From contig CP126206.1 of the NCBI GenBank assembly GCA_030272155.1, forward strand, positions 1,240,001 through 1,304,000: a stretch of 64,000 nt of DNA, in the 5' to 3' direction. Position 1 is the stretch's first letter. The number at the start of each line of letters is the position of its first letter. Below are positions 737-64,000 of this stretch, piece after piece. Position numbers and translations under genes: made by a program. The notes beneath the pieces are model-generated. The model saw nothing but the letters and a program-made list of their open reading frames with translations, did no database searches and was not told the origin of the DNA. The DNA is from Tetradesmus obliquus. Its lineage: Eukaryota; Chlorophyta; Chlorophyceae; Sphaeropleales; Scenedesmaceae.

Positions 737-1041
737 AGCTGGTGAGCGGAATCATGGCATGGCACAAGATGGAAGGCAAGCCCTTCAGCAAGGAGCAGGC
801 CAAGACCATGTTTGACGCCTTCATCACCAAGATTGCAAGGTGAGCAGAGAGGCAGGGGAGGAGCGCACTCGTTGGATTGGGGTGGTGGGTTGTGGTGTGC
901 AGGCACATGGTGTGCAGGTGCATGCATTTGTGAACTGGGGTGGTGGGTTGTGTGCAGCTGGCTTGCTGGTGCTGGCTTGCTGGTGTTGGCTTGCTGGTGC
1001 TGGCTCTTATAGACCCAGCCTGCATAGACCCAATATCTTGC

Positions 1042-1075
<34 letters not shown>

Positions 1076-1672
1076 GCTGCTGCTACTGCTGCTACTGCTG
1101 CTGCTGCTGCTGCTGCTGCCCCACAGGCCAGGCCGGCCCATGTACCTGCACACCGACGACAACCGCCTGCGCAGGCTCTTCGTGAACCTGACAGAGAAGG
1201 GCATGAGCCCCCCGCCATCAAAGCTCCCGGATGTGTGAGTGACAGCGTTACAAAACATGTGACTTTGTTGCTATGTTACTTTGTCTGCGTTGCTGCACGC
1301 AGCGCTATCTGTTTGTGAACCTGACAGAGAAGGGCATATGCGACCCCCGCCATGCAAGCAACCGGACATGGGAGCGACAGTGTTACAAAGTTTGTTACAT
1401 TGTTAGTTTTGCTGCTGGGCTACACGCAGTGCTTCGTGTTTGTGCACCTGAAAGTGAAGGTGCTCCTACTGCTGTTGTTGCTGCTGCAGTGGCACCTCCA
1501 ACGCTACTGAGTAAGCCATGCGACTGAAGGGCCTCACCCGCCCTGACTAACCTAATGCTCTTCTGAACACTGTGCTGCTGCTGCTACATTGGCCCTTCCA
1601 ACGCTGCCAAGAAAGCCATGTGGCTGGAGGGCCTCACCCACCCTGACTAACCTAATGCTCTTCTGAACACTG

Positions 1673-1708
<36 letters not shown>

Positions 1709-1781
1709 AGTGACCCCTCCAAGGCGGCTGACAAGGCGATGTGGCTGGAGGGCCTCACCCACCCAACGCTCTTCTGACATG

Positions 1782-6649: not shown

Positions 6650-7478
6650 ATGCATTCATTACTGCGATCTGCAGCAGGCGTGGCCCGCAGGAGCCTGAGG
6701 GTAGGTTACAACAGCAGCAGCAGAGCACAGGCAGGGTCACTCGCAGCCCAGCAGCTGTCTACTGCTGACGTGGGGGCTCTTATTAATGATTTTGTGTGGG
6801 CTGAATGCGTATGCTTTGCAGGTTAGGGCCTCAGACGATGCAGTGGCAACGGCACCTGTTCCACAACTGCCAGCCAGCAGTGGACCAGTCATGGTGAGCA
6901 GCTGCAGGAGCGCCTGCATCCTTTTCCCGCACATGAACATCTGATTATTACTTCAGCAGTGTTGTTTTGGGTTTGAATAATGCATGAACACCCAGCAGGA
7001 TGCTAAGGCTGGACAGCAGCGGCCTGCACATGACGGCCAAGTGGAGGTGGACAAGCATGGTGCAGTGCACTGCAGCAGGCGCTCTGCTGCATCCTCAGCA
7101 ACTCCAGAGTCCCCATTTCACCTGCAGCCCAAACGTCTTGCACCATGTAAACAAATGTATGTAAACAAATGCATGTAAACAAATTTCCAGCCAAGTTGCA
7201 GCGCATGTAAACCAGCCTAGCAGGCAGCTGCTTGCATTGTGGCTCGACAGGTGCATGCGCCACAGACAGTGTGACATACTCCTGCATGTACTGCAAGGCA
7301 TATGCTGTGGGTTGCTGCTGCTGAAACCTGTCAGCCCGGTGATGTCGGAGGATAACTGTGCCGCTGCTGCTGCTGCTGCTGCTGCTGCCGCTTCTTCGTC
7401 TGCAACCCTAAGCCCATGCAGGTGTGGTTCCAGCACAATTTGTGAGTGGCACCCAGGGCTGCTGGCTGCCTTCTGAAC

Positions 7479-7533
<55 letters not shown>

Positions 7534-7695
7534 AGGTGTGGTTCCAGCATGATTTGCGTGTGGCGGACCACCCTGGGCTGCTGGCTGCCATCAACAGCGG
7601 GGCCCCGCAGCTGTTGCCCTTCTTCTGCCTGGACCCGCAGCTGTATGCTCCTCTGTGCCTTTTGCCCTCAGGACCTGCAGGTGGGTAGAACGTGT

Positions 7696-7762
<67 letters not shown>

Positions 7763-8020
7763 TCGTGGTGAAGCAGCAGCTGCTGCGACGCTGCCCTGCT
7801 CCTGCCTGGACCCGCAGCTGTACGCACCACTGTGCCTGATCCCTTTACGACCTGCAGGTGAGGAGGTATGTTATCAGCAGCAGCAGCAGCAGTTGAGATG
7901 CAGCAGCAGCCCTTCTTCTGCCTGGACCCGCAGCTGTATGCACTGCTGTGCTTGATCCCTTCAGGGCCAGCAGGTGAGCAATGCGTTATGAGCAGCAGCA
8001 GCACCAGCAGGGGCAGCAGT

Positions 8021-8053
<33 letters not shown>

Positions 8054-8774
8054 TGAGATGCAGCGGCAGCCCTACTTCTGCCTGGACCCGCAGCTGTACG
8101 CACCGCTGTGCTTGATTCCTTCAGGGCCAGCAGGTAAGCAATGCGTTTTGAGCAGCAGCAGCAGCAGCAGCAGCAGCATTTGAGATGCAGCTGCTGCCCT
8201 TTTTCTGCCAGGACCCGCACCTGTACGCACCGCTGTGCCTTTTGCCCTCAGGACCAGCAGGTGGGTAGAAAGTGTCTGGCAGCAGCAGCAGCAGTAGTGG
8301 TGAAGCAGCAGCAGCTGCGATGCTGCCCTTCTTCTGCCTGGACCCGCAGCCGTATGCTTGACCCCTTCAGGTCCTGCAGGTGAGCCTAAAAGGACGCAGC
8401 ACTTGAGATGCAGCAGCAGCTGTAGCAGCAGATTTCTGCTGCCCTTCTTCTGCCTGGACCCGCAGCTGTATGCACCGCTGTGCTGATCCCTTCAGGACCT
8501 GCAGGTGAGCAGTGACCTTAGCAGCAGCAGCAGCAGCAGTTGAGATGCAGCGGCAGCCCTTCTTCCGCCTACGACCCGCAGCAGTATGCTTAATCCTTTA
8601 AGGACCTGCAGGTGAGCAAGGAGTTGCCAGCAGCAGCAGCAGCAGCAGCAGCAATATGGTGGAGCAGCAGCGCCGCCTGCAAACTGCCACACCACCCAAA
8701 CACACGGCCTCATACCCAACATTTTTCACTCTTCACTTTGCGCATCTTGCTGCTGCTGCTGCTGCTACTGCTGG

Positions 8775-8817
<43 letters not shown>

Positions 8818-11800
8818 GCTGCTGCTGCCTGCAGTGCTACTGGCTGCGCTGGCTCGGCTGCGGCAGCAGCTGCGGGCAGTTGGGTCAGACCTGGTGGTGC
8901 GGGTGGGTCCCGCTGCCACCACCACTGCTGCTACTGCTGGGGCAGCTGGGGTGAAGCGCATCGTGATTGAGCGCCAGGAGGAGAGCAGGTGAGATGCTAT
9001 GTTATGATGTTGTTGTTTTGTTATGTGATATTGTTATTTCAATGCAAATGCCATGGTGGCTGATCATGGCGTGGCGGCTGTCGTTTATTTGGACGCAGCA
9101 GCACTGCCCACGCGCATCAGCAGCTGGCACGCTCGTGGTTGAACTGCTGGTGCTAGCTGTTTGTTTTTGCAGTGCAGGTGGCTGGAGGCGGGGCACCTGC
9201 TGGCACTCTTGATTGTGTACACCACACCATGTAGAAAGTGACTAATTGCTTTCTGTGCATACAACCGCATTCTTTTGCAGGTGGCTGGAGGCCACCCCCT
9301 GGCACACTTGATTCAGTTCATGGCCACGTGTTGATGTGAGCTTTGTTTGTGTGCATGTAATCAACCTTGATGCAACTGCCGTTTCTAAGAAACAGGTGGC
9401 TAGAGGCTGGGCACATGCTGGCGCAGCAGCTGGACTCATCAGCGCTGCCCACGCGCATCAGCATGCCTCTGCGTTCGCTGCTATTTGGAACTATTCTGTA
9501 TGGTTATTCTGCACTGCAGGTGGCTGGAGGCAGGCCACATGTTGGCGCAGCAGCTGGAGTCATCAGCGCTGCTCACCCGCATCAGCACACCTCTGCTTCG
9601 ACTGCTTTCTTGAAGTCTTCTGTACGACTCTGCACCGCAGGTGGCTGGAGGCTGGGCACATGTTGGCGCAGCAGCTGGACTCGTCAGCGCTGCCCACGCG
9701 CATCAGCAAAGCTCTGCTTTGACTGCTATTTGAAACTATTTTGTATGGTTATTCTGCACTGCAGGTGGCTGGAGGCAGGCCACATGTTGGCGCAGCAGCT
9801 GGACTCATCAGCGCTGCCCACGCGCATCAGCATCTGGCACACCCATGCTGCTGCTGAGCACTGCTGTCTTTCTGCATTTCTTGCACTGCAGGTCGCTGCA
9901 TGCAGGGTACCTTGCTTAGCACGCCAAAGCCTGCACCTCTCCTTCTATTAATCCTGCTGGTTGTGTTTTTGTCTTGCAGGTGGCTGGAGGCTGGGCACAT
10001 GCTGGCACAGCAGCTGGACTCGTCAGCACTGCCCACGCGCATCAGCAGCTGGCACACTCGTGCAGCTACCCCGGGTGCTGGTTGTTGTGTACTTGTAGTG
10101 CAGGTGGCTTGAAGTGGACTACCTGCTGGCACGGCTTGATTGTGCACACCACACCATGTGGAAGTGACTAAATACTTTCTGTGCATACAACCGCATTCTT
10201 TTGCAGGTGGCTGGAGGCAGGGCATATGCTGGCCCAGCAGCTGGACTCATCAGCACTGCCCACCCGCATCAGCAGCTGGCAGGCACCGCTGTGGCAGCAG
10301 GGCAGCTTCAAGCCAAACTTCAAAGACTGGAAGGAGAGCAGAGGCCAGGCGCTGGCGCCGCTGCCGGCGCCCGGAAAAGTGCCGCCGCTGCCGGCAGGGT
10401 TCGAACCCGGGACCTTGCCGGGATTATCCACGCTGCAGCAGCTGCTGGAGGATGCGCTGGCGGCTGGGCCAGCAGAGGCGGCAGTAGCAGCGGCAGCAGC
10501 AGCAGCAGCGAATGGCAAGGCTGGCCGTAGCAGCAGTCCTAGCAGCGGCAGATCCTCGCCTACTTTTGGCGGCCGCACAGCAGCGCAGGCGGCAGCAGCA
10601 GCAGCACAGCTTTGGGGCCCTGACAGGGCAGCAGCAAGGGAGCAGGTGCTTGAGCAGATGCTGCAGGAGCCCAGCACTGCTTCAGTTGCAGCCGCAGCCG
10701 CGAAGATCGCCCAGCTGCTTCTTCCCAGCGAATTTCACACCAGCGGCAGTGAAATTCACGGTGAAGTTCCCAGCAGCAGCCGTGAACTTCACCCTGAAGA
10801 CATCCTGGAGGCCTACCTCACTGCAGACACCACGGCGTCACCGGAGCCCCGCCTGGCGTTCCTGAGAAGTTCAGTGTCGGAACTGGAAGTTCCCGCTGCT
10901 CCCGGTGCGAGCTTCCTGGCGCTGCTGGGGCCGCTGCTGGGCCTTGGGGTTTTGAGCAGCCGGCAGGTCCATGCCAAAACCCTGGCGGCTGAGGTGGCCC
11001 GCTGGGGAGGGCGCATGCCGCTGCTGGGGCCTGGCACAGTGACAGCAAAAGCAGCGCTTGCTGCTGTCGAGCTGAATGACTTCCACCGGCAACTAGCTGG
11101 ACACATCCCTCAGGTGGGCTGTTACACTGTTGCACTGCCGCCTGCATATGTATGGCGTCACTGGTGCTGGTTTCTGCACTTGCAACGGCATTTGTGCAGA
11201 GGTGTGGGTGTGTGGATGAGGCCGTGTGCCGCTGCTGGGGCCTGGCACGGTGACGACCAAGGCTGCGCTGGCTGCTGTGGAGCTGAATGACTTTCATCGG
11301 CAGCTGGCTGGACACATCCCTCAGGTAAGCCGCCACGCTGTCGTAGTGTCACTGGCATTTGGGTTCTGCAGTTGCTAGGACTTTTGTTTGCTAGGGCTTT
11401 TTGTTGCGGAGGTAGTGGTAGCTTTTGTTGCTAAGGCTGCGCTGGCTGCTGTGGAGCTGAACGACTTTCATCAGCAGCTGGCCGGACCCATCCCTCAGGT
11501 GAGCCGCCGCACTGTCTCTGATACACTGTCGTCCTGCCGCTGGCATTGCTGCTGGTGGGTTTGGCAGTTGATGGGGCTTTGTTTGACTTCTGTTGCCAGG
11601 CAGCGCTGGATGCTGTGGAGCTGAATGACTATCACCGGCATTGGCCGGCCGCATCCCTCAGTTGCGGTTGTGTACTCGCTGCACTGCTGTACTGTTGCCT
11701 GCGTACGTTGAGCCTGCGGGTGCTGGCTTCTGCACCTCCTGCAGCTTTTCTTGTCAAGCAGCCATCACGCAGCAGCAGCAGCAGCAGCAGCGCAAGTCCC

Positions 11801-14147
11801 CACCCTGCCAGCTGTCTGTTGCTGTGTGCTGTCTGCCCCCTGCAGGAGGCAGACACCGGTTACACGCCGGGTATGTTGTTGTCGCCGCTACCATGCACAT
11901 AAATATGTGTGGTCTTGCATCCCCTTTGCAGGAGGGCGATGCCGGTACCGCAGGCGGCGATCCCCCAGCACGCAGCAGCAGCAGCAGCAGCCCCACTGCC
12001 ACCAGCAGCTGGTGGGGAGAGGAGCCGGTTGCATCTGCTGCTGCCGCACCGCCCCTCATCCCACCAACCGCCTTTTCTGGTTTTTCCTTATTCCCTGCAG
12101 GAGCGCAGTACGGGGTGTGCTGGTGTCGCTGCTGCCGTGTAATTGATCAACCTGTTTCTGCCTCTGTTCCCACCTCACCCCTGCAGGAGGGCGATGCAGG
12201 CACCGCCCGCGGCGACCCGCCAGCACGTGGCAGCAGCAGCAGCAGCCCCGCTGCTACCAGCAGCTGGTGGGGGGAGGAGCCAGTGGCGTCTGCTGCTGCC
12301 AGTTTCGATGAGGCGCCGGATGGCGTGAGCCAGTGGGGCATCACTGACTGGCCGGCTGGGCTGCCGCGGCGCTGCAGCTGGCGCTGGCGCGGCGCGCTCA
12401 CAGGTGCGGAGATGCACCTTCAAACACAAGTTGTGTGTCATACTTGCGGTGTAGGCTTGAACACGGTGCTAGCAGAGTGTTGACGGTTGCTGCCCCAGAT
12501 GGCCAAAGGTCTTGGCTGCAGTTGTGTTTGAGTCCTGTTGTGTTGTTTTGACGAGGCGCCGGATGGCGTGAGGCAGTGGGGCATCACGGACTGGCCGGCT
12601 GGGCTGCCGCGGCGCTGCAGCTGGCGCTGGCGGGGCGCACTGACAGGTACGGTGCAGCAGTTGACTCAAACACAAGTTGTGTATCATGCGTGCGGTGTTC
12701 GCATGAATCTGGGACTAGAATGAGTGTTGGCCTCTGCTGTTTTAGATGGTCAAAGGTCTTGGCTGCGGGTCTGTTTGAGCGCTGGTCTGTTGTTTTGTTG
12801 AGGCGCTGGATGGCGTGAGCCAGTGGGGCATCACAGACTGGCCGGCTGGGCTGCCGCGGCGCTGCAGCTGGCGCTGGCGTGGAGCGCTGACAGGTGCGGC
12901 GCAGCATTGTTTGTGTTTTCTGCTTGCAATGCGTCGTGAAAACGGTACTACCAGAATGTCGAGTGTTGCTGCGCCGGACGGTCAAAGGTTTTGGCTGCAA
13001 GTCTGTTTGAGTGCTGGTCTGTTGTTTTGATGAGGCGCCGGATGGTGTGAGCCATTGGGGCATCACAGATTGGCCAGCTGGGCTGCCGCGGCGTGCAGCT
13101 GGCGCTGGCGGGGGGCGCTGACAGGTGCAGAGCTGCAAATTGCTTGCAAAATAAACTGTAACGTGTGTGATGCTGGCTGTGGTGTTACCAAGGGTGCTGG
13201 CTGTCGCACCAGGTGGTGCTGCATTAGTTCTTTTTTTGGCTGGCTGGGGCACTGCTGCCAGTTTTGACGAGGCGCCGGATGGCGTGAGCCAGTGGGGCAT
13301 CACAGATTGGCCGTCTGGCCTTCCCCGGCGCTGCAGCTGGCGCTGGCGCGGAGCGCTGACAGGTGCGCAATCCCTTACACGGCGGGGATGTGGTACTAGC
13401 AGAGTGTTGATTTTGCTGCCCCAGATGGTCAAAGGTCTTGGCTGCCGTTTGAGTGCTGGTCTGTTGCTTGCTGGGGCCGGATGGTGTGAGCCAGTGGGGC
13501 ATCACAGACTGGCCGGCTGGCGTGCCGCGGCGCTGCAGCTGGCGCTGGCGCGGAGCGCTGACAGGTGCGGCGCTGCAAACTGCCTGCAAATCTTATTCTG
13601 CAACGTATGTTTCAAGCCATGTGCTGCTGGCTGTCTTGTTACCAGGGATGCTGGCTGTAGCACCCGGTGCTTCTGCATTAGGTTTATTTGTTGGCGCTGG
13701 CGCAGATCGCTGACAGGTGCGGCGCAGCAGCTGCTTGTGTATGTTGCTTGTGGATCATGCATGCTGGCAGAGGGCTGGCTGATGCTGTTGCTGTTGCCAT
13801 CCCAGAGGTCAAGAGGCCTGTTGCTGCGGCTCTGTTGGAGTGCTGCCAGCTAACACCTCTGCGTGGTTGAGCCGCGCCACCCCAAACCCGGTGACTTAGC
13901 CGTTGTGCTTGTGCACGGCTACGCGCTTTTGAGGAGCAGTGCTGCCGCGACACTCGACTACTGCTGCTGCTGCCAAATACTGCTGCTGTGCACATATTTC
14001 TGTGTGGGGGGGCCCGCAGTCCCAAGCCAGGTGCCCCAGCCATTGTGCTGGTGCACAGCGTTGGTGCCTTTGGCGATCAGTCGCGCTTGAACCTGGTCCC
14101 ACTGGTACAAAACACTAACACTTGTTTGCATGCTTTTGCTGCTGCTG

Positions 14148-14186
<39 letters not shown>

Positions 14187-15423
14187 GCAGATTTCTGTGT
14201 GGTGGAGCCCCGCAACCCTAAACCTGGCGCCCAGCCATCGTGCTTGTGCACGGTTTCGGCGCCTTTGGGGACCAGTGGCGCTTCAACCTGGCCCCGCTGA
14301 TATGTGAATATACTAACACGCGTTCGCATGCTCTTGCTGCTGCTGCTGCTGTTCACAGACTTCTGTGTGGTGGAGCCACGCAACCCTAAGCCCGGTGCTC
14401 CAGCCATTGTGCTTGTGCACGGCTTTGGCGCCTTTGGGGACCAGTGCTGTCACGACACCTGACTACTGCGACTGCCGCCGCTGCTGCTGCTGCTGCTGCT
14501 GCGCACAGACTTCTGTGTAGTTGAGCCACGCAACCCTAGACCCGGAGCTCCAGCCATTGTGCTGGTGCACGGCTTTGGTGCCTTTGGGGACCAGTGGCGC
14601 TTCAACCTGGGCCCGCTCTCAGAAGCTGGCTACCGTGTGTTTGCGCCCACACTGCCTGGGTTCGGGCGCAGCGAGAAAGCTGCACTGCAGTACAGCCAGA
14701 ACGCGTGGAGGGACTTCATCAGGTCAGTTTAATCACTGAGTTTAGGCGCACTTGTGTTCATCTGCCGTGCATTTTGAAGCATGTTGGGGCTGTTTTGTGT
14801 TCTGGCCAAGCCATGCTGTGTGCTGGGGTCTGCTGTGGGGCTTCAACCTGGCCCCGCCGTCAGAAGCTGGCTACCGTGTGTTTGCCCCCACGCTGCCAGG
14901 ATTCGGGCGGAGCGAGAAAGCGGCACTGCAATACAGCCAAAACGCCTGGAGGGACTTCATCAGGTGCGTGCATCTGCCGCTTATTCCAAAATATAAGTGT
15001 TCTCCTGGGATGCTTTTCCGTGCATCACGGCGCTGTGTTTATCCTGTGGCCCAGCCATGCTTTGTGCTGGGGTCTGCTTCGGGGGTTTGACCTGGCCCCG
15101 CTGTCAGAAGCTGGCTACCGTGTGTTTGCGCCAACACTGCCAGGGTTTGGTCGCAGTGAGAAAGCTGCACTGCAGTACAGCCAGAACGCATGGAGGGACT
15201 TCATCAGGTGATTGCCAGCTGTTGAGTATGCTTTACTTGGTTGCTGCTGATGATGGCGTGTTTAGCTGAGGTTGCACACAGGGGCTGCCTGATAGCACAC
15301 CAAGGCTGTTGCCTCCCCCTGTGAGCCTCTCGTTGGCTCCTGACTGGGGTTCCACTCCTCGTTTGAGTGGAGCATGTAATGTAATGTAATGCTGTTGCAG
15401 TGTCTGCTGGGAGCAACCTTAAC

Positions 15424-15455
<32 letters not shown>

Positions 15456-18154
15456 GCTCTTTTTGATCACACCTTGCACACCTTGCAGGGACTTTTTGGT
15501 GTGTGTGGTGGGCTCCCCTGCTGTGCTTGCCGGCAGAAAGGCTGAGAACTGCTGCTGCTGCTGCTGTTTGCAGGGACTTTTTGGTGTGTGTGGTGGGCTC
15601 CCCTGCTGTGCTTGCTGGCAACTCCATTGGGGGCTTCATCGCTGCCTCACTGCTGACTAAACTCAATATTGTAAGCCCTTTGTTGTTGCTGCTGCGGTGT
15701 TTCTAAAGCTGCCAGCAGGTACTTTCAACAAGTACGCAAGGCTGTTGCAGTGTCTGCTAAGAGACATCCTGACAACCTGCTGCTTGCAACAAGGCTGTTG
15801 CAGTATCTGCTAAGAGACATCCTGACAACCTGCTGCTGCTGCTGCTGCTGTTCTGCAGGGACTTTTTGGTGTGTGTGGTGGGCTCCCCAGCTGTGCTGGC
15901 AGGCAACTCCATTGGTGGCTTCATTGCTGCCTCAGCGCTGACTAAATCCAATTATTGTAAGCCCGTTGTTGCTGCTGCTGCGGTGTCCCTAAAGCTGCCA
16001 GCAGGTACTTCCAACAAGTACGCCAAGGCTGTTGCAATGTCTGCTAAGAGACTTCCCTGACAACCTGCTGCTGCTGCTGCTGCTGCTGCTGCTTGCAGGG
16101 ACTTTTTGGTGTGTGTGGTGGGCTCCCCAGCTGTGCTTGCCGGCAACTCCATTGGGGGCTTCATTGCTGCCTCAGCAGCAGCAGACTACCCGTCACTGGT
16201 GGCGGGCCTCGCTCTGCTGAATAGTGCAGGCCCTGTTACGCCCGGCTACACAGCCGCGGATGCAGCAGCAGCAGCAGCCGCCACCTCGCCATCACCCAAC
16301 CCCTGGCTGGTGCAGGCCGGCACTGCAGCACTGATGCTGTATTTGCGCAGCAGCATTGCCAAGCAGCTCAAGTGGCTGTACCCCACAAACCCAGACAATG
16401 CGGACGAATGGCTGGAGCAGGAGATCTACAGGTGTGGTTTGGTTTGTTGTAAGCAGTTATAGCTTGTTATTATGGGTGTATTTTGGGTTGCTGCTGTACC
16501 TGTGCAGCAGCATTGCGAAGCAGCTCAAGTGGCTGTACCCCACAAACCCTGCAAATGCAGACCAGTGGCTTGAGCAGGAGATCTACAGGTGTGTTGACGT
16601 GTTATAACAGTTATATTGTGTTACCAGCGGGTCAAAGCGGCTTGTTTCTGTACTTGTGAGGCAGCACTTCCAAGCAGCTCAAGTGGCGGTGGTTTGCAAC
16701 TGCCTGAATTCCATCTTCGTCGTTGATATAATCGCTAACTATGTTTGTTGTACCTGTCTGCAGGGCTGCGTGCGACTCGCGCTCTGCGGATGTGTTTGCG
16801 AGCCGCGTCATAACCAACCTAGAGCATCAGGCACGTGGCAGCTCACACGATTCAACGTGCTGCTGTGTGCTGTGTAGGGCTGCATGCGACTCGCGCTCGG
16901 CTGATGTGTTTGCGAGCGTGTTCTACCTGCCCAAGCCCCGCCCGCTCAACTTCCTGGTCAATGACCTCTGGAAAGGGCCTACTGCAGTCATCCAGGGAGT
17001 GCTGGACCCCCTGAATGACGCACAGGTGGGTGGGGGTTTTGGGGTGATGGGTTCAGGTGCATAACCTTGGGTGTCAGGTTTGTAACAGGTGCTTAGGTGT
17101 GCAACCACCTCATCCTGTGACGCGGCCCCACTGCAGCCATCTAGGGAGTGCTGGACTCACTGAACGACGGGTGAGTGGAAATGGTCAGGGACTGGTACAC
17201 GTGGGGCTTACGGCCTGGAACATTCGCACGGGGGACTGCCTTGCACTGTCTGTGCACTGTCTGTGACCTTCCTTTGACCTTCCCGTGCCCTGTGTGTGAC
17301 CTTCCTGCAGGCGCGCTCTGACCGTGTTGTGCAGCAGTGCGGCCCTGTGGGGCTGCTGGCTTCAAATATCAAGGCGGGGCACTGTCGTTTGCTGCCTGTG
17401 ACCTTCCTGTGACTGGCTGTGGCACTGCTTGTGACCTTCATGTGACCTTCTCCTGCTCTGTGTGTGACCTTCCTGCAGGCCCGCTCTGACCTTCTCGTGC
17501 AGCAGTGCGCCCCAGTGGGCCTGGTGGCTTCAAACATCCAGGCAGAGCACTGCCCTATCGCATACGCACATGTATCTTGACCTTCAAGTGACCTTCTCCT
17601 GCGCTGTGTGTGACCTTCCTGCAGGCCCGCTCTGACCTTCTCGTGCAGCAGTGTGCCCCCGTGGGCCTCAGGGCCTGGACCATCAAGGCAGGGCCCTGCC
17701 ATGTCCCATATGCACATGTATCTTGACCGTCCTGTGACCGTCATCTGCCCTGTCTTTGACCTTCCTGCAGGCGCGTTCTGACCTTCTTGTGCAGCAGTGC
17801 GCCCCCGTGGGCCTCAGGGCCTGGAACATCCAGGCGGGGCACTGTTGTTTGCTGCCTGTGACCTTCCTGTGGCTGGCTGTGGCACTGCTTGTGACCTTCA
17901 TGTGACCTTCTCCTGCGCTGTGTGTGACCTTCCTGCAGGCGCGCTCTGACCTTCTCGTGCAGCAGTGCGCCCCAGTGGGCCTCAGGGCTTGGAACATCCA
18001 GGCGGGGCACTGCCCACATGATGAGCAGCCTGAGCTGGTTAATGCTGCGTTGCTGGAATTCATTGAGCAGATGGTTGAGCCAACGATGCAGTGCGGCAGC
18101 AGCAGCAGCAGCAGTCCTGCTGTAGTTGGAGCGGCTGCGAGCAAGGCACAGTGA
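6650..18154 (+). CDS. Chloroplast photolyase-N-domain / alpha-beta hydrolase fusion
   Basis: Exons are 6650-6700, 6822-6893, 7536-7680, 8835-8988, 10207-11113, 12187-12403, 14509-14722, 16099-16431, 16878-17025 and 17939-18154. They join without a frame break into 818 residues (863 if ATG 6515 is used). Residues 1-25 look like a chloroplast transit peptide ending near SLRVRA. Residues 42-140 match the photolyase/cryptochrome N-terminal domain (VWFQHDLRVADHPGLLAA, then GSDLVVRVG). The FAD-binding domain is absent. After an Ala/Ser-rich linker comes an alpha/beta hydrolase: oxyanion loop VLVHGFGAFGDQW, nucleophile elbow GNSIGG (Ser near 604), acid in GVLDP (near 741) and His in AGHCPHDEQPELVN (near 771). 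Plants have the same fusion (Arabidopsis At4g25290 type). The substrate is unknown. Introns are filled with partial copies of the adjoining exons. The exact copy used for exons 5 and 10 is inferred from phase. Confidence 0.85.
7419..7475 (+). repeat. Head echo of photolyase exon 3
   Basis: GCAG then GTGTGGTTCCAGCACAATTT repeats the start of the exon at 7536, followed by a decayed LLAA-coding stretch. It lies upstream of the intact exon. Confidence 0.8.
7700..7761 (+). repeat. (CAG)n tract at the donor side of intron 3
   Basis: About twenty CAG units begin 20 bases after the donor at 7681. The same intron ends in a CTG-rich tract at about 8746-8833 before the acceptor. Confidence 0.9.
7796..8612 (+). 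repeat. Seven tail echoes of photolyase exon 3
   Basis: Copies of the exon end (FFCLDPQLYAPLC then S/LxPAG) finish at about 7857, 7974, 8134, 8263, 8378, 8503 and 8610. Each finishes in CTGCAG or CAGCAG followed by a GTGAG-, GTAAG- or GTGGG-type donor. Spacing is about 107-160 bases, and CAG tracts separate them. The intact exon is 7536-7680. Confidence 0.85.
9174..10138 (+). repeat. Nine head echoes of hydrolase exon 5
   Basis: The sequence TGCAG|GTGGCTGGAGGC and up to 70 following bases (RWLEAGHMLAQQLDSS, LPTRIS) recur at about 9175, 9281, 9396, 9521, 9642, 9766, 9893, 9981 and 10102. The intact tenth copy starts at 10207. Spacing is about 90-126 bases. The first two, the seventh and the ninth are strongly decayed; the others are nearly identical and keep an open frame. 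Confidence 0.9.
11254..11670 (+). repeat. Three tail echoes of hydrolase exon 5
   Basis: Copies of KAALAAVELNDFHRQLAG, IPQ and the following donor lie at about 11240-11324, 11428-11498 and 11596-11665. The first has CAG|GTAAGC, and the third is disrupted (DYHRHWPAAS). The intact exon ends at 11113. Confidence 0.85.
11845..12075 (+). repeat. Head echoes of exon 6
   Basis: CTGCAG|GAGGCAGACACC at 11845 and CAG|GAGGGCGATGCC at 11932 repeat the start of exon 6 (EGDAGTAxGDPPAR, then poly-Ser, then SSWWGEEPVASAAA). The intact copy is 12187-12403. Confidence 0.85.
12547..13720 (+). repeat. Five to six tail echoes of exon 6
   Basis: Copies of DEAPDGVSQWGITDWPAG, then RRCSWRWRGALTG and an ACAG|GTGC donor, start at about 12547, 12799, 13029, 13265 and 13477. 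A stub (WRWRRSLTG) lies near 13695. Spacing is about 210-250 bases. They lie downstream of the intact exon 12187-12403. Confidence 0.9.
13864..14460 (+). repeat. Four head echoes of exon 7
   Basis: Copies of the hydrolase exon start (FCVVEPRNPKPGAPAIVLVH, GFGAFGDQ) lie at about 13864, 14000, 14190 and 14357. They have frameshifts and truncations, and each of the last two is preceded by a CTG tract plus an acceptor. The intact copy is 14509-14722. Confidence 0.85.
14835..15210 (+). repeat. Two tail echoes of exon 7
   Basis: 14838-14963 and 15085-15208 repeat the exon end from FNLAPLSEAGYRVFAPTLPG through NAWRDFIR and its AG|GT donor. They follow the intact exon 14509-14722. Confidence 0.9.
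15489..15960 (+). repeat. Three head echoes of exon 8 (nucleophile-elbow exon)
   Basis: GCAG|GGACTTTTTGGTGTG copies start at about 15489, 15574 and 15859. The second and third run through GNSIGGFIAAS and then diverge. The intact exon is 16099-16431. An intron segment with GCTGCCAGCAGGTACTT(C/T)CAACAAGTACGC is repeated with them. Confidence 0.9.
16503..16590 (+). repeat. Tail echo of exon 8
   Basis: This repeats SSIAKQLKWLYPTNP through WLEQEIYR and the AG|GTGTG donor. It lies downstream of 16099-16431. Confidence 0.9.
16763..16860 (+). repeat. Head echo of exon 9
   Basis: CTGCAG|GGCTGCGTGCGACTCG (RAACDSRSADVFAS) repeats the start of the intact exon 16878-17025, then diverges. Confidence 0.9.
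17110..17172 (+). repeat. Tail echo of exon 9
   Basis: A decayed copy of the end of exon 9 (GPTAAI, stop, GVLDSLND-like) is followed by GGGTGAGTGG. It lies downstream of the intact exon. Confidence 0.75.
17312..17850 (+). repeat. Four head echoes of terminal exon 10
   Basis: CCTGCAG|GC(G/C)CGCTCTGACC copies start at about 17312, 17480, 17625 and 17772, each encoding ARSDLLVQQCAPVGL-like sequence. The intact exon starts at 17939. Spacing alternates at about 145 and 168 bases, and the spacers contain many TGTGACCTTC motifs. Confidence 0.9.
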
Positions 18155-19312
18155 GCTGAGTGTGAACCGGTTGCTTTGCGACAATGCTCGGAAGCAGGGG
18201 GTGTACAGGAAGTGCTGTTGTTACGGCGCAGTGGCCCTGCTCAGGTGCACAATGGGCAGGCAGAGCTGGTCAATGCAGCGCTGCTGGAATTCATTGAACA
18301 TATGGTGGAGCCTGCAATGCAGCGCGGCAGCAGCAGCAGCAGATGCAGCAGCGGTGCGGCGGTGGTTGAGGCAGCTGCGAGCAAGGCATAGGGAGGTGCC
18401 AGCGGTGATGCCAGCAATGCAGCAGCTGCAGTGCAGGGCCCCTGCCAAGCAGGCACATCATATTGGCCCCCTTGTTGAGCAGCCAGAGCGGGAGGTGAAT
18501 GCGGCGCTGCTGGAATTCAATGAGCAGATGGTGGAGCCTGCAATGCTTGGTAACAGGACTAGCAGCAGCAGCAACAGCAGCAGCAGCGGCGGTGCGGCGG
18601 TGGTCGGAGCAGCTGCAAGCAAGGCATGATGACAGGGACAGTGGTGATGAAAGCAATGCGACAGCTGACGTGCAGTGCCCCTGCCAAGCAGGCGCATCAC
18701 GCGGGCCGCATGATAAACAGCCAGAGCTGGTCAGTGCAACGCTGCTGGAATTCATTGAGCAAATGGTGGAGCCTGCAATGCAGCGCGGCAGCAGCAGCAG
18801 CAGCAGCAGCAGTGCGGTGGTGGTTGGTGCAGGGGCGAGCAAGGCATAGCGACGCAGCGCTGATGAAAGCAATGCAACAGCTGACGTGCAGGGCCCCTGC
18901 CAAGCCGGTGCAGTGCGGGCCCTTAGATGAGCAGCCTGAGCTGGTCAATGCAGCGCTGCTGGAATATATTAAGCAGATGGTGGAGCCGGCAATGCAGGGC
19001 AACAAGCCTGGCAGCAGTAGCAGTAGCAGTAGCAGCAGCAGCGGTGCGGTGGTGGTCAGAGCTGCTGCAAGCAAGGCATAGTGAGGCCGGGGGCAGGGGA
19101 TGAGGGCGTTGCGACTGCTGCAGTGCTTGGGGTGTGCTCAGGCGCAGCATATGGGGCGCATGATGAGTAGCAGAATCTGGTGGCTGCTGCAGTTCGTTGA
19201 GGACGTGGTGCGAGAGTCTGCAATGCAGCGTGACAGCAACAGCAGCAGCAGCAGCAGCAACACGCTGTATTTGCCGCAGCAGCAAGCGAGGCTCAGTAAG
19301 CTCTCTGTCTAA
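18155..19312 (+). repeat. Five tail echoes of terminal exon 10, each with a stop
   Basis: Copies of (E/D)xQPELVNAALLEFIEQMVEP, poly-Ser and AVVVGAAASKA plus stop end at about 18391, 18629, 18849, 19081 and 19312. The last is the most decayed. They follow the intact terminal exon 17939-18154. They may form the 3' UTR, or alternative last exons if an acceptor is used. Confidence 0.85.
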
Positions 19313-24389: not shown

Positions 24390-24499
24390 GCACCTGGCAC
24401 ACAAGCAAGGAAACCATCGTCCGGGATACGGAGTTGAGACTCCCCAATTTGACAGCCATCGATCATTGATGAGTTATCAAGTCACCAATGCTGCTGCCG

Positions 24500-24845
24500 G
24501 CAGGTTCTGCTTCTCCCCCTGCCGCTCATTACTGATCATATACACCCCGTCCTTGATGTAAATGATGGCCCAGTCAGCAAGCATTTCATTGCCTTTGGCA
24601 GCAGCCATACAGAAAACAATGCCTGGCCTGTCGCTGTTCTTGCAGCGCTGCCAGCGCAGTGTGCATCCAAGCAGTCAAGCACCCTCTTCATCACCACGCC
24701 GCATTACGCCACGACTGCTGCTGCCGGCTGCTGCTGCTTCACGCCCTGCCGCTCCTTCACATTCATGTAGAGCCCATCCGTGGTGTGGATTGTAGCGCCT
24801 GTTGTCATGTTGATGGTCTGACCAGGCACCAGGAGAACTCACAGA
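24500..24845 (-). repeat. Tail echoes of the CYP97C terminal exon
   Basis: On the minus strand, 24740-24840 repeats the end of the last exon ([29 protein letters not shown]) with frame breaks. About 24485-24570 holds a more decayed copy. Both lie downstream of the intact stop at 24952. Confidence 0.85.
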
Positions 24846-24951
24846 CGCTTCAGCAGCACTGCCAGCAGCACTGCCAGCACTGCCAGTGCCACAACAGCCA
24901 AAGCAAGCACCAAACCAGTCAACCAAACTTCCTGCAGCAGACGCCTTCCCA

Positions 24952-25191
24952 TTACGCTACCACTGCTGCTGCCGGCTGCTGCTGCTTCACGGCCTGCCGC
25001 TCCTTCACATTCATGTAGAGCCCATCCGTGGTGTGGATGGTAGCTCCTGTTGTCATGTTGATGGTCTGGCCTGGCACTAGCGAAAACTCAAAGCGCTTCA
25101 GCAGCACTGCCAGCGCCACAACTGCCTCCATGAGGGCGAACTGGTCGCCCACGCACTTGCGCGGGCCGCCGCTGAAGGGAATGTACCTGAC

Positions 25192-25225
<34 letters not shown>

Positions 25226-37900: not shown

Positions 37901-38858
37901 CCGAGTGGCCTTCTTCCTGCACGGCATCTTGGACACCAGCCTGACATGGGTCAGTGCTGGCGTGACGGGCAGCCAGGCCTTTGGGGCCTGGGACGCGGGG
38001 CAGGACGTGTGGCTGGGCAGCAGCAGGAGCAACCCGCCGCGCACCGCCACAGGTCGGTTAAACAAGCTCAAACTGCTAGTTGTATGTCACAAGCGTAGCA
38101 AGGCACTGAAATTGCATTGGGGTCTTCTTGGGCATGTTTTCTTGCTTTTTTATGTTTGGGCGCTGTTAGGTCCGTAGTCAAGTTGTGTCCTGCTTTCGAG
38201 CATGTTGCTGCTGTTGCTGTCTGTTACTGCGGCAGCAGGAGCGCGCCACGGTACACCGCAACAGGTGCAGCACAGCTTTTTGTTGATTGGGAGTCTTCTC
38301 ATGTCATTGGCGGCTTGAATTGAGCCTGTTGTTGTTTGTTTCCTCGTCACCAGCGGCATCAAACTGCCTCTTACCACCACAATTGCATTACACCTGGGCT
38401 TCTAAAGCTGTTGCTAGTATTGTATCCAAGGGTTTGGGGGGTTTGGGGGTTAGGGTGTTGGCGGCCTTCTTCCTGCACGGCATCCTGGACACCAGCCTGA
38501 CATGGGTCAGTGCTGGCGTGACGGGCAGCCAGGCCTTTGGGGCCTGGGACGCGGGGCAGGACGTGTGGCTGGGCAGCAGCAGGAGCAACCCGCCACGCAC
38601 CGCCACAGGTGCGCACGGGGCCGTATGGTATGTAGTACTTGGCAGACTTGAGTCACATGTTTGGGCAGCTTTTGAGCATCTTGGGCTGAACGATGTGGTT
38701 GGTTTTTGGGTTGCTTGAGCAGTGTTAGCTTGCCTTGAGCCTGTTGTCGCCACTGCTGTTGTTTGACCGTACTTTCGGCAGCAGCAGCCGCTGGAGCAAG
38801 CCGAGGCACACAGCAGCAGGTGTGGCAAGGCAACCTCAGATGACTGAAGCTGACATAC

Positions 38859-38891
<33 letters not shown>

Positions 38892-39413
38892 CTGCAGATC
38901 CAAACCGGCAAGGCCTGCGCTACTCAACCTCTTGCTCATTGAGCTGGGCATTCATACCTCAGTTGCTGAACTTGGCATACTGCTGCTGCTGCTGCTGCCG
39001 CTACCGCTGCCTGCAGATCCAGACAGGCAGGGTTTACGCTACTTCAACTTCTCCCTCAACGAGCTGGGCATCCACGACATTCCGGCACAGCTGGACCTGC
39101 TGCACTCAGTGAAGATGAGGGAGCTGGCTGGCAGCAGCAGCAGCAGCAGCAGCACCACTGCTGCTGCTGCTGCTGCTGCTGCTGGGGCAGGGCCGTACGG
39201 CTTAGGAGTGCACAGCAGCACTGGCAGCAGCAGCAGCAGCAGCACCATCGGGCTGTCGCCAGGCAGGCGCACCCTGCCAGCAGGCCTAGCACGCGGCGGG
39301 CTGAACCCTGGAGGTTTGACCGCGTTTGACTTGCGGCGGCAGATGGACCCGCTGCTGTCAGCAGCACCTGCAGGGGCAACAGGGCTGGCGCCGTGGGCTG
39401 CTGAGTCAGTGTT

Positions 39414-39448
<35 letters not shown>

Positions 39449-42400: not shown

Positions 42401-42701
42401 CATGCTACTGTACGTTTTGTTGCTTACTGCAACAATGCATTGTCAGGGTGGGGTGCTTGCAACCTAACCGTTGCTGCCAGACATCGGCAGCCAGTACTGG
42501 CGCCTGGCTGCACATTGACCTGCTGGCAGGCGGGTGGCTTACTTTGTTGCTGTTACATGCGTCGTGGCTTGCTCTGTCATGTGCGCTGCCATGTTGCTGC
42601 CGGTGCTGCTGGTGCTGATGTCACAAAGGCAGTCTTTGGTGCAGCACCCCGCCCCTAGTATCTAGCTGCCATTGCATTGTCTTGACATGTGCTGCTGCTG
42701 C

Positions 42702-42738
<37 letters not shown>

Positions 42739-43159
42739 CAAGTGTGACGGCATCATCCCGCCCAGCAACGTGCTCTGCCACTACCAGGCCATGCGGGAGC
42801 AGGGGCTGCAGGTGCGCTGGCGGCTTGTTATGTTTTTGTTCTAAAACATCTATAACATGTTACGAGTTTGGGCCTGACATTGATTGTGCGGCAGTTCTTG
42901 ATGAGCAGCTCAAACCCTAGGCTGTGCCTGATCCCTCGTGGGCGCTATGTATCGCAGCACATCATCTTGCAAGCTAGTGTGCACTTGTAGCCTCCTGCGC
43001 TCAAAATCAGACTTCAAGCTCAAGTTCCCACCCAACCTCACACTGTGAACTTCCCAGGTGACGTACCGTGAATTCGAGTACGGCCACATGGACTTCACAT
43101 TCAGCGTGAAGGAGGAGCTGCGCTACTACGTGATGAAGTGCTTGAGCAGGCCCAGCTGA
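33962..43159 (+). CDS. Acid-lipase-like alpha/beta hydrolase with giant low-complexity insertions
   Basis: Exons are 33962-34298, 34772-35658, 36027-36521, 37080-37269, 37819-38052, 39017-40951, 41136-41338, 42073-42229, 42738-42811 and 43058-43159. They total 4,614 bases, 1,537 residues with all phases matched. The order of conserved blocks matches plant proteins of the At1g18460/At1g73920 type: an N-terminal hydrophobic region (LLLLCIEWLHAHTIG to TTGSRLINGACSWAL), the lipase-associated block (YPLELHQVTTADGYVLRIER), FFLHGILDTSLTWV, then nucleophile elbow VAHSLGGM (Ser near 1295), acid in GKCDGIIP and His in YGHMDFTFS. The family is annotated as lysosomal-acid/gastric-lipase-like; the true substrate here is unknown. 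Between SVKMREL and PYDLRVVAHS lie about 535 residues of Ala/Gln/Ser, absent from the plant proteins. Introns carry exon echoes. Confidence 0.88.
36765..36935 (+). repeat. Head echoes of lipase exon 4
   Basis: GCAG|GCGCAGCTCAGCTTGGGCAC at about 36770 and GCAG|GCAAAGTTCAGCCTAGG at about 36878 (then GTGCGTCAGCGCTGCCG) repeat the start of the intact exon 37080-37269. Confidence 0.9.
36946..37076 (+). repeat. 34-bp tandem repeat in lipase intron 3
   Basis: Nearly four copies of GTACTGCACTGTACTGCTGA plus TGTTGATATGCTCT run directly into the CTGCAG acceptor of exon 4. Each unit contains a pyrimidine/CTG segment like the acceptor tract. Confidence 0.9.
37393..37507 (+). repeat. Tail echo of lipase exon 4
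   Basis: This repeats RWNHAGEPQPAAAAA-region sequence (frame disturbed at the start), then VSEDELSPAAQMILKAG and its G|GTGCGG donor. It is downstream of 37080-37269. Confidence 0.9.
37628..37750 (+). repeat. Head echo of lipase exon 5
   Basis: CTCCAG|GTTACCCGCTGGAG repeats the start of exon 5 through ERIPRPGSP and ILDTS, then diverges. The intact exon is 37819-38052. Confidence 0.9.
38455..38610 (+). repeat. Tail echo of lipase exon 5
   Basis: 38460-38608 is almost identical to the end of exon 5 (AFFLHGILDTSLTWV to SNPPRTAT) with its ACAG|GTGCGC donor. It implies a recent copy, downstream of the intact exon. Confidence 0.95.
38890..38975 (+). repeat. Head echo of lipase exon 6
   Basis: CTGCAG|ATCCAAACCGGCAAGGCCTG repeats the start of exon 6 (DPDRQGLRY) and then decays around ELGIH. 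The intact exon starts at 39017. Confidence 0.85.
41465..41600 (+). repeat. Tail echo of lipase exon 7
   Basis: This repeats ADLTRAMMKAF, the GGDS-coding stretch (frameshifted), PHHNAAGM and CSLHQ with a CAG|GTGTG donor. It is downstream of 41136-41338. Confidence 0.9.
41755..42030 (+). repeat. Head echoes of lipase exon 8
   Basis: Copies of GCAGGCGCTGCACTT(C/T)(A/T) and IIR.GRFQL(Y/F)(D/Y).GSPAA lie at about 41757-41830, 41848-41905 and 41948-42035, with varied internal deletions. The intact exon is 42073-42229. Confidence 0.85.
42312..42535 (+). repeat. Tail echoes of lipase exon 8
   Basis: 42318-42370 (PDIGSQHWRLLGLQL) and 42480-42531 (DIGSQYWRLA.HIDLLAG) repeat the end of exon 8, downstream of the intact copy. 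Confidence 0.9.
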
Positions 43160-61120: not shown

Positions 61121-61888
61121 GCTTGAGATTGATTGCCGGTGGAATGTGGTCTTGACCTAGTTTTTTTCCGCGACTCTTTGAACACTAGACAGAGATATGC
61201 ACCAGTACTCAGCTAGCGCACCTGTTGGTTTAGGATGGGTGGTGGCGCTGCCTGGTTGTACCAGTGCGCCCCTCGTGGTCCATGGAGTCGCGTGTCCTGT
61301 TAGAAGCTGGTGTGGGATCAGCATTTAAGTACTTGTAGTATTTTCAGCGTGTAGGAAGTGTGATCAACTGCGAAGCTGGTGCACGTGTGCTGGTGCACCA
61401 GCGGGCGTAGGTAGCACACCCCCTGGTGGCATGTCTGCTGCAGTCTGTGCTGTAGTAATGGCTTTGCCGTGCTTGTGGTGCAAATTTTGGTTAGTTGTAG
61501 CCTGTAATGTTTGTCATTTGAATGACCGAAACTGCTCCGCGCAGATGAAAGTTGAGGTACCCCATCCTGCTGCACAGGGGTAATCGCCCGCTGCCAGTAC
61601 CCAACTGCTGTGCAGCCTTGCCCAAGTGCGAACTGCTCGATGAGGGCCGCTGACTTACCAGAAATGTCGCATTCCATCAAAATATATCTTTGCACATCAT
61701 AGCCGGACCAATGGTGGCACGGCAGCCGTAACAGTGTGCCACTTGTCAGGCATTCCCCGAGTCTCCCGACCCTATAGCCAGCCCGTTGCAGAGTAAAAGA
61801 CACCTTTACAGCCAGTGAGCTCTCAAACTGCAGTCGCAGCTACACATAGCTGCCTGCACGAGCTCGGCAACCACACAAAGCATTCAAC
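61121..61888. other. Intergenic region before TypA
   Basis: This holds the 3' UTR of the coiled-coil gene and the TypA promoter and 5' UTR. No gene is supported. The 161-codon minus frame (61803-61318) has no recognised motif. Confidence 0.5.
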
Positions 61889-63567
61889 ATGTCTTTCACC
61901 AGCACCAAGATGATGCAGAAGGCGGGAGTGGTCTCCAGGACCCCCGTTGTACGTTCTGCACACCAGGTCAGGCAGCAGGCGCGCTCCGCAAAGCACCAGG
62001 CTGCTCCCTCAGGTGCGAAACATGTGATGCGCATGCGGGCCATGCAGCCCGCCATGTGCAGCTCATTGCTTTCTGCACGCGCAATTCATGGACATTTAGG
62101 GTGCTGAACGTTACTTCGTAGCAAGACCAGCGTTCTCCGGAGCAGCGCCCGGCACCTGTTTCACTGCTTGCTACGGCGCTGCTCCCTTGCCGACTGGCCA
62201 TGCAACAGTTTCCATATGTTCGATTCAACAATATGGCGTGGGCGTTTCAGCGTATAAGCTGACTGCTGTGTGGTGCTGCCTCCTGCTCCTGCAGTTGTGG
62301 CTGCAGTGGTGCCCCAGCAGCAGCTCTCCGCAGCAGCACGCAGGGCAAGCCTTGCCTGCAGGGTGGCAGCAGCTGAAGGTCAGTAACGGTTTTGCAGCAG
62401 CAGTAGCTAGGGTACAACGCCGGAAGTGCCGCAACCAGCAGTCCTGCAAGCAGGAAACCCTGGTGCAGCAGGCACAGCGCTTAGTCGCCGACATGTCAAG
62501 CTGGCAACTGTGTTTGCTGGCCAAAGCAGCTGCTTGCAACCACAAAACATAACAAGCGCATCATCCTTTGTAGCTTACTTAAAAGGCATGTTGCTGTGGT
62601 GATGTGCATGGGCACCCGTTTTTTTGTTCGACTTTGCTTTCACACAAACCAACAAACCACTACTTTCTGCCAGCAGAAGCACTAGTTTAAAGGACTGTGC
62701 TGACAAGCATCTTTGGATGAAGCTCTGTTACTTGGTGCTGCCTTTCCTTGCAGCCCCCGCCGCCGCCGGCGCTGACAGCAGCAGCAGCAGCGCCAGCAAT
62801 GTGCGTGGTGACATCCGCAACATTGCCATCATTGCCCACGTCGACCACGGCAAGACCACCCTGGTGAGTCACCAAACAATCGACAAACAAAGCGAACATC
62901 ACAGTCATAGTGCATTTGATCGGCAACAGCAGCAGCAGCAGCAGCAGCGGCAGCAGCTAGCGCAATGGCACCGGCACAGCGCACATGCGTCCTTGCATGA
63001 CCTCTCCGCATTGCAGCATTGTTTGCACTTTCTCCTTCCCTTGAGTAAGCTGCTTGGTGTCTGGCATGTTATGCTGTAGGTGGACTCCATGCTCAAGCAG
63101 AGCAAGGTGTTCCGCGCCAACCAGGACATGGCTGAGCGCGTGATGGACAGCAACGCACTCGAGAGGGAGCGCGGCATCACCATCCTGGCCAAGAACACCG
63201 CCATCAGGTGTGTTATATGGGTGTTAATGACACATATAACACATGTATGTAACATGTGTGATATTAGCGATGGACAGCAACGTGCTGGAGCGCGAGCGCG
63301 GCATCACCATTCTGGCCAACAACTCCGCCATCAGGTGCGTGTTACTTGTTATGTCATGTGACACTTCTCAGATCTTGGTGTAACAACGGGACATGATCAT
63401 GAACAGCAACTCCCTAGAGCGAGCGTGATGGCTGTTATGCCTAACAGATTGATGCCTGTCTTGTGGCGACTGCTGCCATGGCCTCTGGGGGTGGGCGGTC
63501 CCCCATGGTTGTTCACAAAGCAGCGCCATGTCTCGTGTGTGGCCAGTCATGGCGTACGTTGTGAACG

Positions 63568-63621
<54 letters not shown>

Positions 63622-64000
63622 AGGTTCAAGGGTGTGAAGATCAACGTCATTGACACCCCTGGTCACGCTGATTTCGGAGGAGAGGTGGAGCGCGTGCTCA
63701 ACATGTGCGACGGTGAGTGAGGGCAGCAGGGTTTTACAGCACAAGAGCTGTGGGGTTTTGCGGCAGCCATGCGAATGCTCTAGGCAAGGTGGAGCGTGTG
63801 CTTTACATGTGTGATGGTGAGTGAGGGCAGTGTCAGTGCTCATGAGGGTTGGCAGCAGCGTGTTGCAGGAACGTGGGGGCTTCCCATGCCCAGACACACC
63901 TGAGACCTGTGGGCATCACTCTGGGCATCGAGCTCAAGTAAATTTTAATTTACAAGTTGCATTTGCATTTGCAGGCGAGCTGCTGCTGTTTGACAGCGTC
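61889..64000 (+). CDS. typA: Chloroplast translational GTPase TypA/BipA, 3' end outside the window
   Basis: Exons are 61889-62012, 62754-62863, 63080-63207, 63624-63712 and 63975-64000 (continuing); all phases match. The first exon encodes a transit-peptide-like N terminus ([20 protein letters not shown], rich in Ser, Arg, Gln and His). Then comes the GTPase domain: [20 protein letters not shown] (P-loop), [19 protein letters not shown] (switch I, RGITI) and [20 protein letters not shown] (DTPGH), followed by GELLLFDSV. This is the TypA/BipA signature; the plant plastid form (SVR3) acts in ribosome function and stress tolerance. About 150 residues are present of a protein usually near 600-680. 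The donor at 62013 is inferred from phase; reading on to VMRMRAMQ is an alternative end of the transit peptide. Confidence 0.9.
63263..63432 (+). repeat. Tail echoes of TypA exon 3
   Basis: 63270-63334 repeats [20 protein letters not shown] with an AG|GTGCG donor. 63396-63430 is a decayed second copy (MNSNSLERA). Both follow the intact exon 63080-63207. Confidence 0.95.
63570..63622 (+). repeat. (CTG)n acceptor tract before TypA exon 4
   Basis: About seventeen CTG units run directly into CAG and the exon start at 63624. Confidence 0.95.
63780..63822 (+). repeat. Tail echo of TypA exon 4
   Basis: GCAAGGTGGAGCGTGTGCTT then TACATGTGTGATGGTGAGTG repeats the exon end ([10 protein letters not shown]) and its donor, downstream of 63624-63712. 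Confidence 0.9.

Follow-up and report, generated by a model that had tools for sequence, protein, structure and literature searches.

The window analysed here is a stretch of 64,000 nucleotides (nt), positions 1,240,001-1,304,000 of contig C16, from Tetradesmus obliquus, a green alga of the Scenedesmaceae whose genome of 104.66 Mb is assembled in 17 contigs, and it carries three genes whose intact exons are surrounded by truncated copies of themselves, hereafter called echoes. These genes are PHR, with photolyase/cryptochrome-N and alpha/beta hydrolase domains, CYP97C, and LIP, an AB-hydrolase lipase. Their exon maps are independent of the repeats, as they were taken from spliced protein alignments, and only these three genes of the window were scored; 0.7-3.2 kb, PLA2 (~47-49 kb) and 49-61 kb were viewed as frame translations only. 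PHR exon 5, on whose internal intron the protein models differ (P0123 has one), was scored as a single exon, and so was LIP exon 3, though P0159 has an intron within it. Copies were searched by DNA self-alignment of each gene on the same strand, with microsatellites soft-masked, and the matches were reduced to non-redundant copies. Each copy was then classified by the exon edge it contains (head, with the acceptor; tail, with the donor or stop; internal; or whole) and by the side of the intact exon on which it lies (Table 1).

The three genes contain 71 copies, and at least one copy was found at 22 of the 29 mapped exons. Heads upstream and tails downstream account for 32 each, the remainder being one head downstream and six internal pieces, three on either side of their exon. 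A single edge is spanned, near the source and in the same orientation, in 64 of the 71 copies. An earlier reading made from the sequence only had claimed this arrangement, with more than 70 copies and no internal piece among them; the arrangement holds, but six copies have no recognisable edge. The copied exon parts measure 27-162 nt (median 76 nt), and the exon-linked matches are 68-99 % identical, mostly far below identity. The copies sit within introns or in the flank by the intact exon, and in CYP97C all 576 of the 576 residues of P0001 are encoded without them.

Table 1. Exons and exon copies of PHR, CYP97C and LIP (window positions)
Feature	Position	Strand	Basis or remark
PHR gene	6650..18154	+	Spliced alignment of P0121 and P0123; homologues
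PHR exons 1-5	6650-6700, 6822-6893, 7536-7680, 8835-8988, 10207-11113	+	
PHR exons 6-10	12187-12403, 14509-14722, 16099-16431, 16878-17025, 17939-18154	+	
PHR exon 3 head copy	7422..7473	+	
PHR exon 3 tail copies, six	7792..8611	+	All downstream; starts 7792, 7900, 8060, 8187, 8436, 8547
PHR exon 5 internal-type copy	9090..9132	+	Upstream
PHR exon 5 head copies, six	9178..10054	+	All upstream; starts 9178, 9396, 9520, 9641, 9765, 9980
PHR exon 5 tail copies, three	11218..11661	+	Starts 11218, 11430, 11600
PHR exon 6 head copy	11932..12045	+	Acceptor is its start
PHR exon 6 tail copies, five	12545..13564	+	
PHR exon 7 head copies, four	13855..14446	+	
PHR exon 7 tail copies, two	14835..15207	+	
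PHR exon 8 head copies, three	15489..15936	+	
PHR exon 8 tail copy and internal-type copy	16489..16690	+	Tail 16489-16588; internal-type 16648-16690
PHR exon 9 head copy	16764..16803	+	
PHR exon 9 tail copy	17124..17169	+	
PHR exon 10 head copies, four	17311..17844	+	
PHR exon 10 tail copies, four	18252..19084	+	With stop; past gene end
CYP97C gene (OEZ86_010226)	24952..31178	-	12 exons; spliced alignment of P0001
CYP97C exons 1-6	31178-31023, 30903-30796, 30072-29955, 29602-29404, 28453-28255, 28047-27985	-	
CYP97C exons 7-12	27656-27568, 27215-27133, 26631-26459, 26003-25779, 25491-25409, 25186-24952	-	
CYP97C exon 3 tail copy	29810..29862	-	
CYP97C exon 4 tail copy	29121..29245	-	
CYP97C exon 5 head copies, four	28493..28981	-	
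CYP97C exon 6 copy	27847..27899	-	Sole head-downstream case; nearly whole exon
CYP97C exon 7 head copy	27738..27790	-	
CYP97C exon 8 head copy	27299..27336	-	
CYP97C exon 9 head copies, two	26662..26890	-	
CYP97C exon 9 tail copies, two	26105..26349	-	
CYP97C exon 10 internal-type copy, then exon 11 head copy	25576..25706	-	Exon 10 copy 25706-25638; exon 11 copy 25625-25576
CYP97C exon 12 tail copy	24704..24866	-	With stop
CYP97C exon 12 internal-type copy	24484..24559	-	Downstream
LIP gene (scored part)	37080..43159	+	Spliced alignment of P0159
LIP exons 1-4	37080-37269, 37819-38052, 39017-40951, 41136-41338	+	
LIP exons 5-7	42073-42229, 42738-42811, 43058-43159	+	
LIP exon 1 internal-type copy	36902..36930	+	Upstream; 29 nt
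LIP exon 1 tail copy	37398..37506	+	
LIP exon 2 head copy	37630..37748	+	Homology from acceptor on; 16 of 20 differences at third positions
LIP exon 2 tail copy	38463..38608	+	98.6 % identical; homology up to GT
LIP exon 3 head copy	38898..38954	+	
LIP exon 4 tail copy	41469..41596	+	
LIP exon 5 internal-type copy and head copy	41844..42036	+	Internal-type 41844-41903; head 41951-42036
LIP exon 5 tail copies, two	42310..42529	+	42310-42372, 42473-42529

Outside the three genes, Pfam exon-level tables provided 474 hits in 7 families, of which only the best candidates were scored. The 73 loci fetched comprise the best 30 of 94 P450 hits, 13 of 13 Aldedh hits and the best 30 of 135 kinesin hits. 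Stops within the merged domain hit led to the exclusion of 12 of them, which left 61; one of these (L018) is the window's own CYP97C, and some share a gene. Seven regions with housekeeping genes, four HSP70 and three CCT, were scored as well. For both sets the counts are made at the level of high-scoring segment pairs (HSPs), so that a single copy may score repeatedly, and the exon core limits are Pfam matches rather than true exon ends. The 61 loci gave 24 heads upstream, 16 tails downstream and 12 internal matches, with at least one echo at 20 of the 61 scored exons, and the seven regions gave 21, 20 and 22, respectively, with echoes at 24 of the 52 kept exon cores (a hand count from the rows). 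Pooled, these are 45 heads upstream, 36 tails downstream and 34 internal matches; edge-type matches on the right side make up 81 of the 115, and none lies on the wrong side. At the Pfam level, 31 nested pairs divide into 15 head-upstream, 4 tail-downstream under the strict definition, 1 headish-upstream, 5 tailish-downstream, 5 both-edge and 1 tail-upstream, and both members of this sole tail-upstream pair are truncated copies. No whole-exon copy with both splice sites was scored in the three genes, the 61 loci or the seven regions, the nearest being the CYP97C exon 6 copy with 53 of 63 nt. The echo pattern is genuine and widespread beyond the window, and the strength of the process differs strongly from gene to gene. 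At the scored cores, the HSP70 genes L082 and L077 show no echo and one echo, respectively, and the three CCT regions show many.

The direction of the echoes calls for caution, as geometry can lie behind most of a rule that looks striking. When tandem duplication affects a unit that spans an acceptor, the copy that continues into the rest of the exon is the second one, and for a unit straddling a donor it is the first. Because 'intact' denotes the exon that reads through, heads before it and tails after it are what tandem geometry leads one to expect. Random pseudo-exons placed in the same loci gave 171 right-side and 53 wrong-side cases, together with 31 whole and 235 internal ones; by edge, these were 76 heads upstream against 24 downstream and 95 tails downstream against 29 upstream. 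The control in the seven regions gave 71 right and 25 wrong, with 26 whole or near-whole and 77 internal. With right-side shares of 171/224 and 71/96 among edge-type cases, geometry explains about three quarters of the direction bias, and the filter imposed by the surviving exon supplies the remainder. The directional pattern is real, as had been proposed, but it is to be expected and no independent biological law.

The contribution of the echoes to intron length is considerable. Exon-linked repeats occupy 8,898 of 16,729 intron nt, i.e. 53 % for the pooled genes, and 9,909 of 18,622 nt if the 3' flank is included to a maximum of 900 nt. The proposal that echoes make up most of the intron length is clearly borne out for one of the three genes, with 73 % in PHR, 28 % in CYP97C and 32 % in LIP. 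Repeats with no link to an exon cover only 35 of the 16,729 nt of scored introns, or 59 of 18,622 nt with the 3' flank. An intron-only array of 34-nt units lies at 36947-37072, upstream of the LIP exons that were scored and outside the intron count. In the seven HSP70 and CCT regions, where only part of the exons is known, 77 of 121 repeat pairs are linked to known cores and 5,276 nt are unlinked.

Seventeen tandem-array periods, of 116-287 nt, were found in PHR and CYP97C. Alignable flank of at least 40 nt accompanies 48 of 122 copies, and for 55 of the 122 it is shorter than 10 nt. At L069, L016 and L028 the flanks are far less diverged than the exon parts, and these cases show array turnover next to the exon. 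Judged by eye, many exons of 135-220 nt have heads that stop just where the tails set in, which seems to be explained by the fixed length scale of the copied parts, given their median of 76 nt. A single insertion that splits the exon at a shared break was rejected, since head ends and tail starts are 155-725 nt apart in PHR exons 5 and 8. Runs of CTG/CAG triplets were likewise considered as duplication breakpoints and rejected, as truncated ends are not clearly enriched in them over random intron positions (exact, 8/65 vs 135/1200; at most one mismatch, 21/65 vs 267/1200; at most two, 35/65 vs 510/1200). Such CTG-triplet runs, read by eye, take the place of the pyrimidine tract before 8 of 26 acceptors in PHR, CYP97C and LIP. 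The many decoy splice sites that had been predicted are present, with the AG acceptor still present in 30 of 32 heads and the GT donor in 23 of the 26 tails with a placeable edge. Reading this as a sign of selection was abandoned, because the second-position rate alone (~6 % per site) predicts ~89 % retention and 53 of 58 sites are retained.

The manner in which the copies have diverged is new and unexpected; simple neutral duplication does not predict it. Between copy and intact exon, the three genes show 131, 107 and 426 differences at the first, second and third codon positions. Fourfold sites differ at 30.1 % (312/1036) and second positions at 5.8 % (107/1854), a ratio of 0.19, while for an exon under constraint and a copy free from birth the change at second positions should be at least 0.5 of that at fourfold sites. 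The corresponding values are 26.3 % vs 5.0 % for 51 copies at other loci and 23.9 % vs 4.5 % for the seven regions, the latter from redundant HSPs. Comparison of copy with copy, as means of 13 families, gives 27.3 % at fourfold sites and 9.4 % at second positions, a ratio of 0.34. The claim that the copies have been nearly neutral from birth is contradicted by these values. Changes private to a copy are flat over the codon positions (17/29/30) in nine families with at least three copies, and those private to the intact exon are not (2/0/12). Taken together, the coding-like change in both comparisons and the flat copy-private changes indicate that the ancestors of the copies were mostly coding. 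Fast change of the intact exon alone fails as a cause of the third-position excess, as copy-copy pairs show the excess in 9 of the 13 families. So does GC bias or CpG alone, as third positions exceed the second-position rate in all three context classes.

At the protein level, 205 amino-acid differences could be compared with other strains or species. The residue of the intact exon recurs in one or more of these at all 205 and that of the copy at 24; the inclusion of other T. obliquus strains in the PHR and LIP reference sets favours the intact residue. Some of the 24 copy residues have an ancestral look, being shared with Scenedesmus or with another strain; NPKPG and FNLAPL in copies of PHR exon 7 are examples. 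The divergence values can be fitted by lineages that split ~14 % ago on the scale of fourfold sites, with copies freed ~5 % ago, and from this we infer that the split preceded the release of the copy. A very diverse species or species complex in which copy and exon stem from separate alleles, joined later by recombination, would be expected to show such an order. Among PHR proteins of T. obliquus, 11/703 to 21/673 residues differ, part of which may be annotation, so that deep alleles are plausible.

The best joint explanation, in our view, is that local duplications across one exon edge leave a surviving exon and that the copies come from diverged alleles, a combination we hold to be rather probable. 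Small local duplications would repeatedly copy DNA that straddles a single splice site; those that fall within an exon, or that take in a complete exon or a complete intron, change the mRNA and would be removed, while one-edge duplications would merely lengthen the intron, splicing still having an exon that reads through. Of this, the local one-edge duplications that preserve a single unbroken exon had already been put forward from the sequence, and they are supported here. The observed outcome, with heads on the upstream and tails on the downstream side of the surviving exon, would then follow from geometry and selection, and the unit structure suggests that the arrays grow by unequal exchange between copies. 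The ancestors of the copies would have been mostly functional exon ends for an estimated two thirds of the time since their split from the present exon, copies and exon having come from deeply diverged alleles that may have been joined by imprecise or ordinary recombination between haplotypes. If this allelic origin is right, the copies date recombination between diverged T. obliquus haplotypes. A further step, which we offer only tentatively and with more doubt than trust, is to regard the introns of T. obliquus as an archive of the exon ends of other alleles, captured beside the working exon by imprecise exchange and decaying since; if true, the genes hold a readable record of past alleles and past recombination.

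Several results weigh against the combination of one-edge duplication and diverged alleles. The scarcity of intron-only repeats is one of them, as an exon link, direct in 71 cases and via another copy in 29, exists for 100 of 102 repeat pairs, whereas random placement with the observed periods and events neutral for the mRNA would lead to 36-64 % intron-only duplications; faster decay, and with it poorer detection, may account for part of this. Outside the three genes, 34 of 115 matches are 'internal' by the Pfam core. As these core limits are Pfam matches, 'internal' often means that the copy stops where the match ends, and 31 of the 34 come within 16 nt of the expected edge; three (at L017, L036 and L081) do not. 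The copies are also heterogeneous, for amongst 57 with at least six differences the third-position share is at least 0.6 in 31 and at most 0.45 in six, and the copy-copy ratio reaches at least 0.5, as in neutral change, in 4 of the 13 families (PHR exon 3 and exon 5 tails, CYP97C exon 9 heads and LIP exon 5 tails). Lastly, the flank of the LIP exon 2 tail copy, which is 98.6 % identical in its exon part, is unrelated immediately past the GT, and this copy is not easily fitted either to a fresh tandem copy or to a moderately diverged allele. Directly 5' of it, at 38430-38462, lie G/T-rich telomere-like runs (TTTGGGG, TTAGGG), possibly a scar of break repair.

The ratchet of the sequence-only reading, in which one-edge tandem duplications are identical at birth and unconstrained ever since, accounts well for the direction and its geometry, for the flat copy-private changes, for the stops and frameshifts in some copies and for the four neutral-like families, and the retention of AG and GT, being close to the predicted level, does not count against it. 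The second-to-fourfold ratios, both below the value of at least 0.5 that it requires, make such neutral debris an unlikely account on the whole. Direct purifying selection on copies that serve as alternative exon ends in some transcripts, now or until long after their birth, would produce the coding-like divergence and is compatible with the splice sites still being there, yet it sits poorly with the flat private changes, with up to six copies of one edge at a single exon, with stops or frameshifts in several copies and with the by-eye, uncounted impression that heads have no donor right at the break; we therefore consider it improbable.

The LIP exon 2 tail copy and the low-divergence flanks at L069, L016 and L028 would suit another form of exchange, in which unequal crossing-over regularly moves archived heads and tails into the working exon, so that lineages alternate under selection. 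A head left idle through ~14 % of neutral change would, by our reasoning, rarely still be functional, and visual inspection of ten alignments revealed no clear mosaic; regular exchange of this kind is accordingly doubtful. That the repeats are local and in tandem might raise the suspicion of an assembly artefact, which is very improbable: the copies carry their own differences at 68-99 % identity, which errors of collapse or duplication do not produce, the assembly comprises as few as 17 contigs, and one PHR exon 10 tail copy also occurs in another T. obliquus protein model (P0121).

In tandem exon duplication, including that behind mutually exclusive exons, whole exons are copied together with both splice sites; echoes resemble it as local copies of exon sequence and differ in that no whole-exon copy was scored. 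A known relative is the potato RdRp gene, where an intron was gained via tandem duplication across an intron-exon boundary (PMC4974935). There too, the duplication crosses one splice site and the upstream partial exon copy is spliced out, but the potato event made a new intron incorporating a short piece of former exon, whereas in T. obliquus the partial copy just becomes intron, and this has happened repeatedly within a gene, at both exon edges. Tandem duplication of an exon segment with AGGT is a further route of intron gain (Hellsten et al. 2011, Gao and Lynch 2009, cited in PMC3443670). It likewise reshapes exon-intron structure by local duplication with the protein possibly unchanged; its segment, however, lies inside an exon and makes an intron, whereas in T. 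obliquus the duplicated segment crosses a splice site that was already there. The direct repeats described close to intron ends (PMC11782384) share the position at intron/exon borders but measure 4-30 bp and are read as insertion footprints, in contrast to the exon parts of 27-162 nt copied here. Among the matches listed in open-access PMC, by their titles and abstract openings, there was no account of exon echoes in algae or as a genome-wide feature.

Echoes constitute a concrete, countable mechanism of intron lengthening in one lineage. The mean intron length of 462 bp in T. obliquus, against 230-302 bp in four other green algae in Table 1 of PMC5966456, fits with lengthening by echoes. Echoes are also a source of decoy splice sites and can lead gene models astray, with one likely case in PHR: the tail copy at 18323-18626 is the last coding exon in the P0121 model, whereas P0123 stops at 18151, and the last exon of P0121 is probably an annotation error due to the echo.

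A few minor features of the window may be added. In the intron between CYP97C exons 10 and 11, the exon 10 copy, a trimmed tail, abuts the exon 11 head copy almost directly. An inverted pair of ~2 kb, 81 % identical, at 30864-32837 and 45018-46991, overlaps CYP97C exon 1 and may represent the end of a gene that was duplicated, or else a glutamine-rich gene. A 108-nt tandem repeat at 60500-60762 lies inside the long open frame 56720-61120 and is perhaps an in-frame coding repeat rather than intron.

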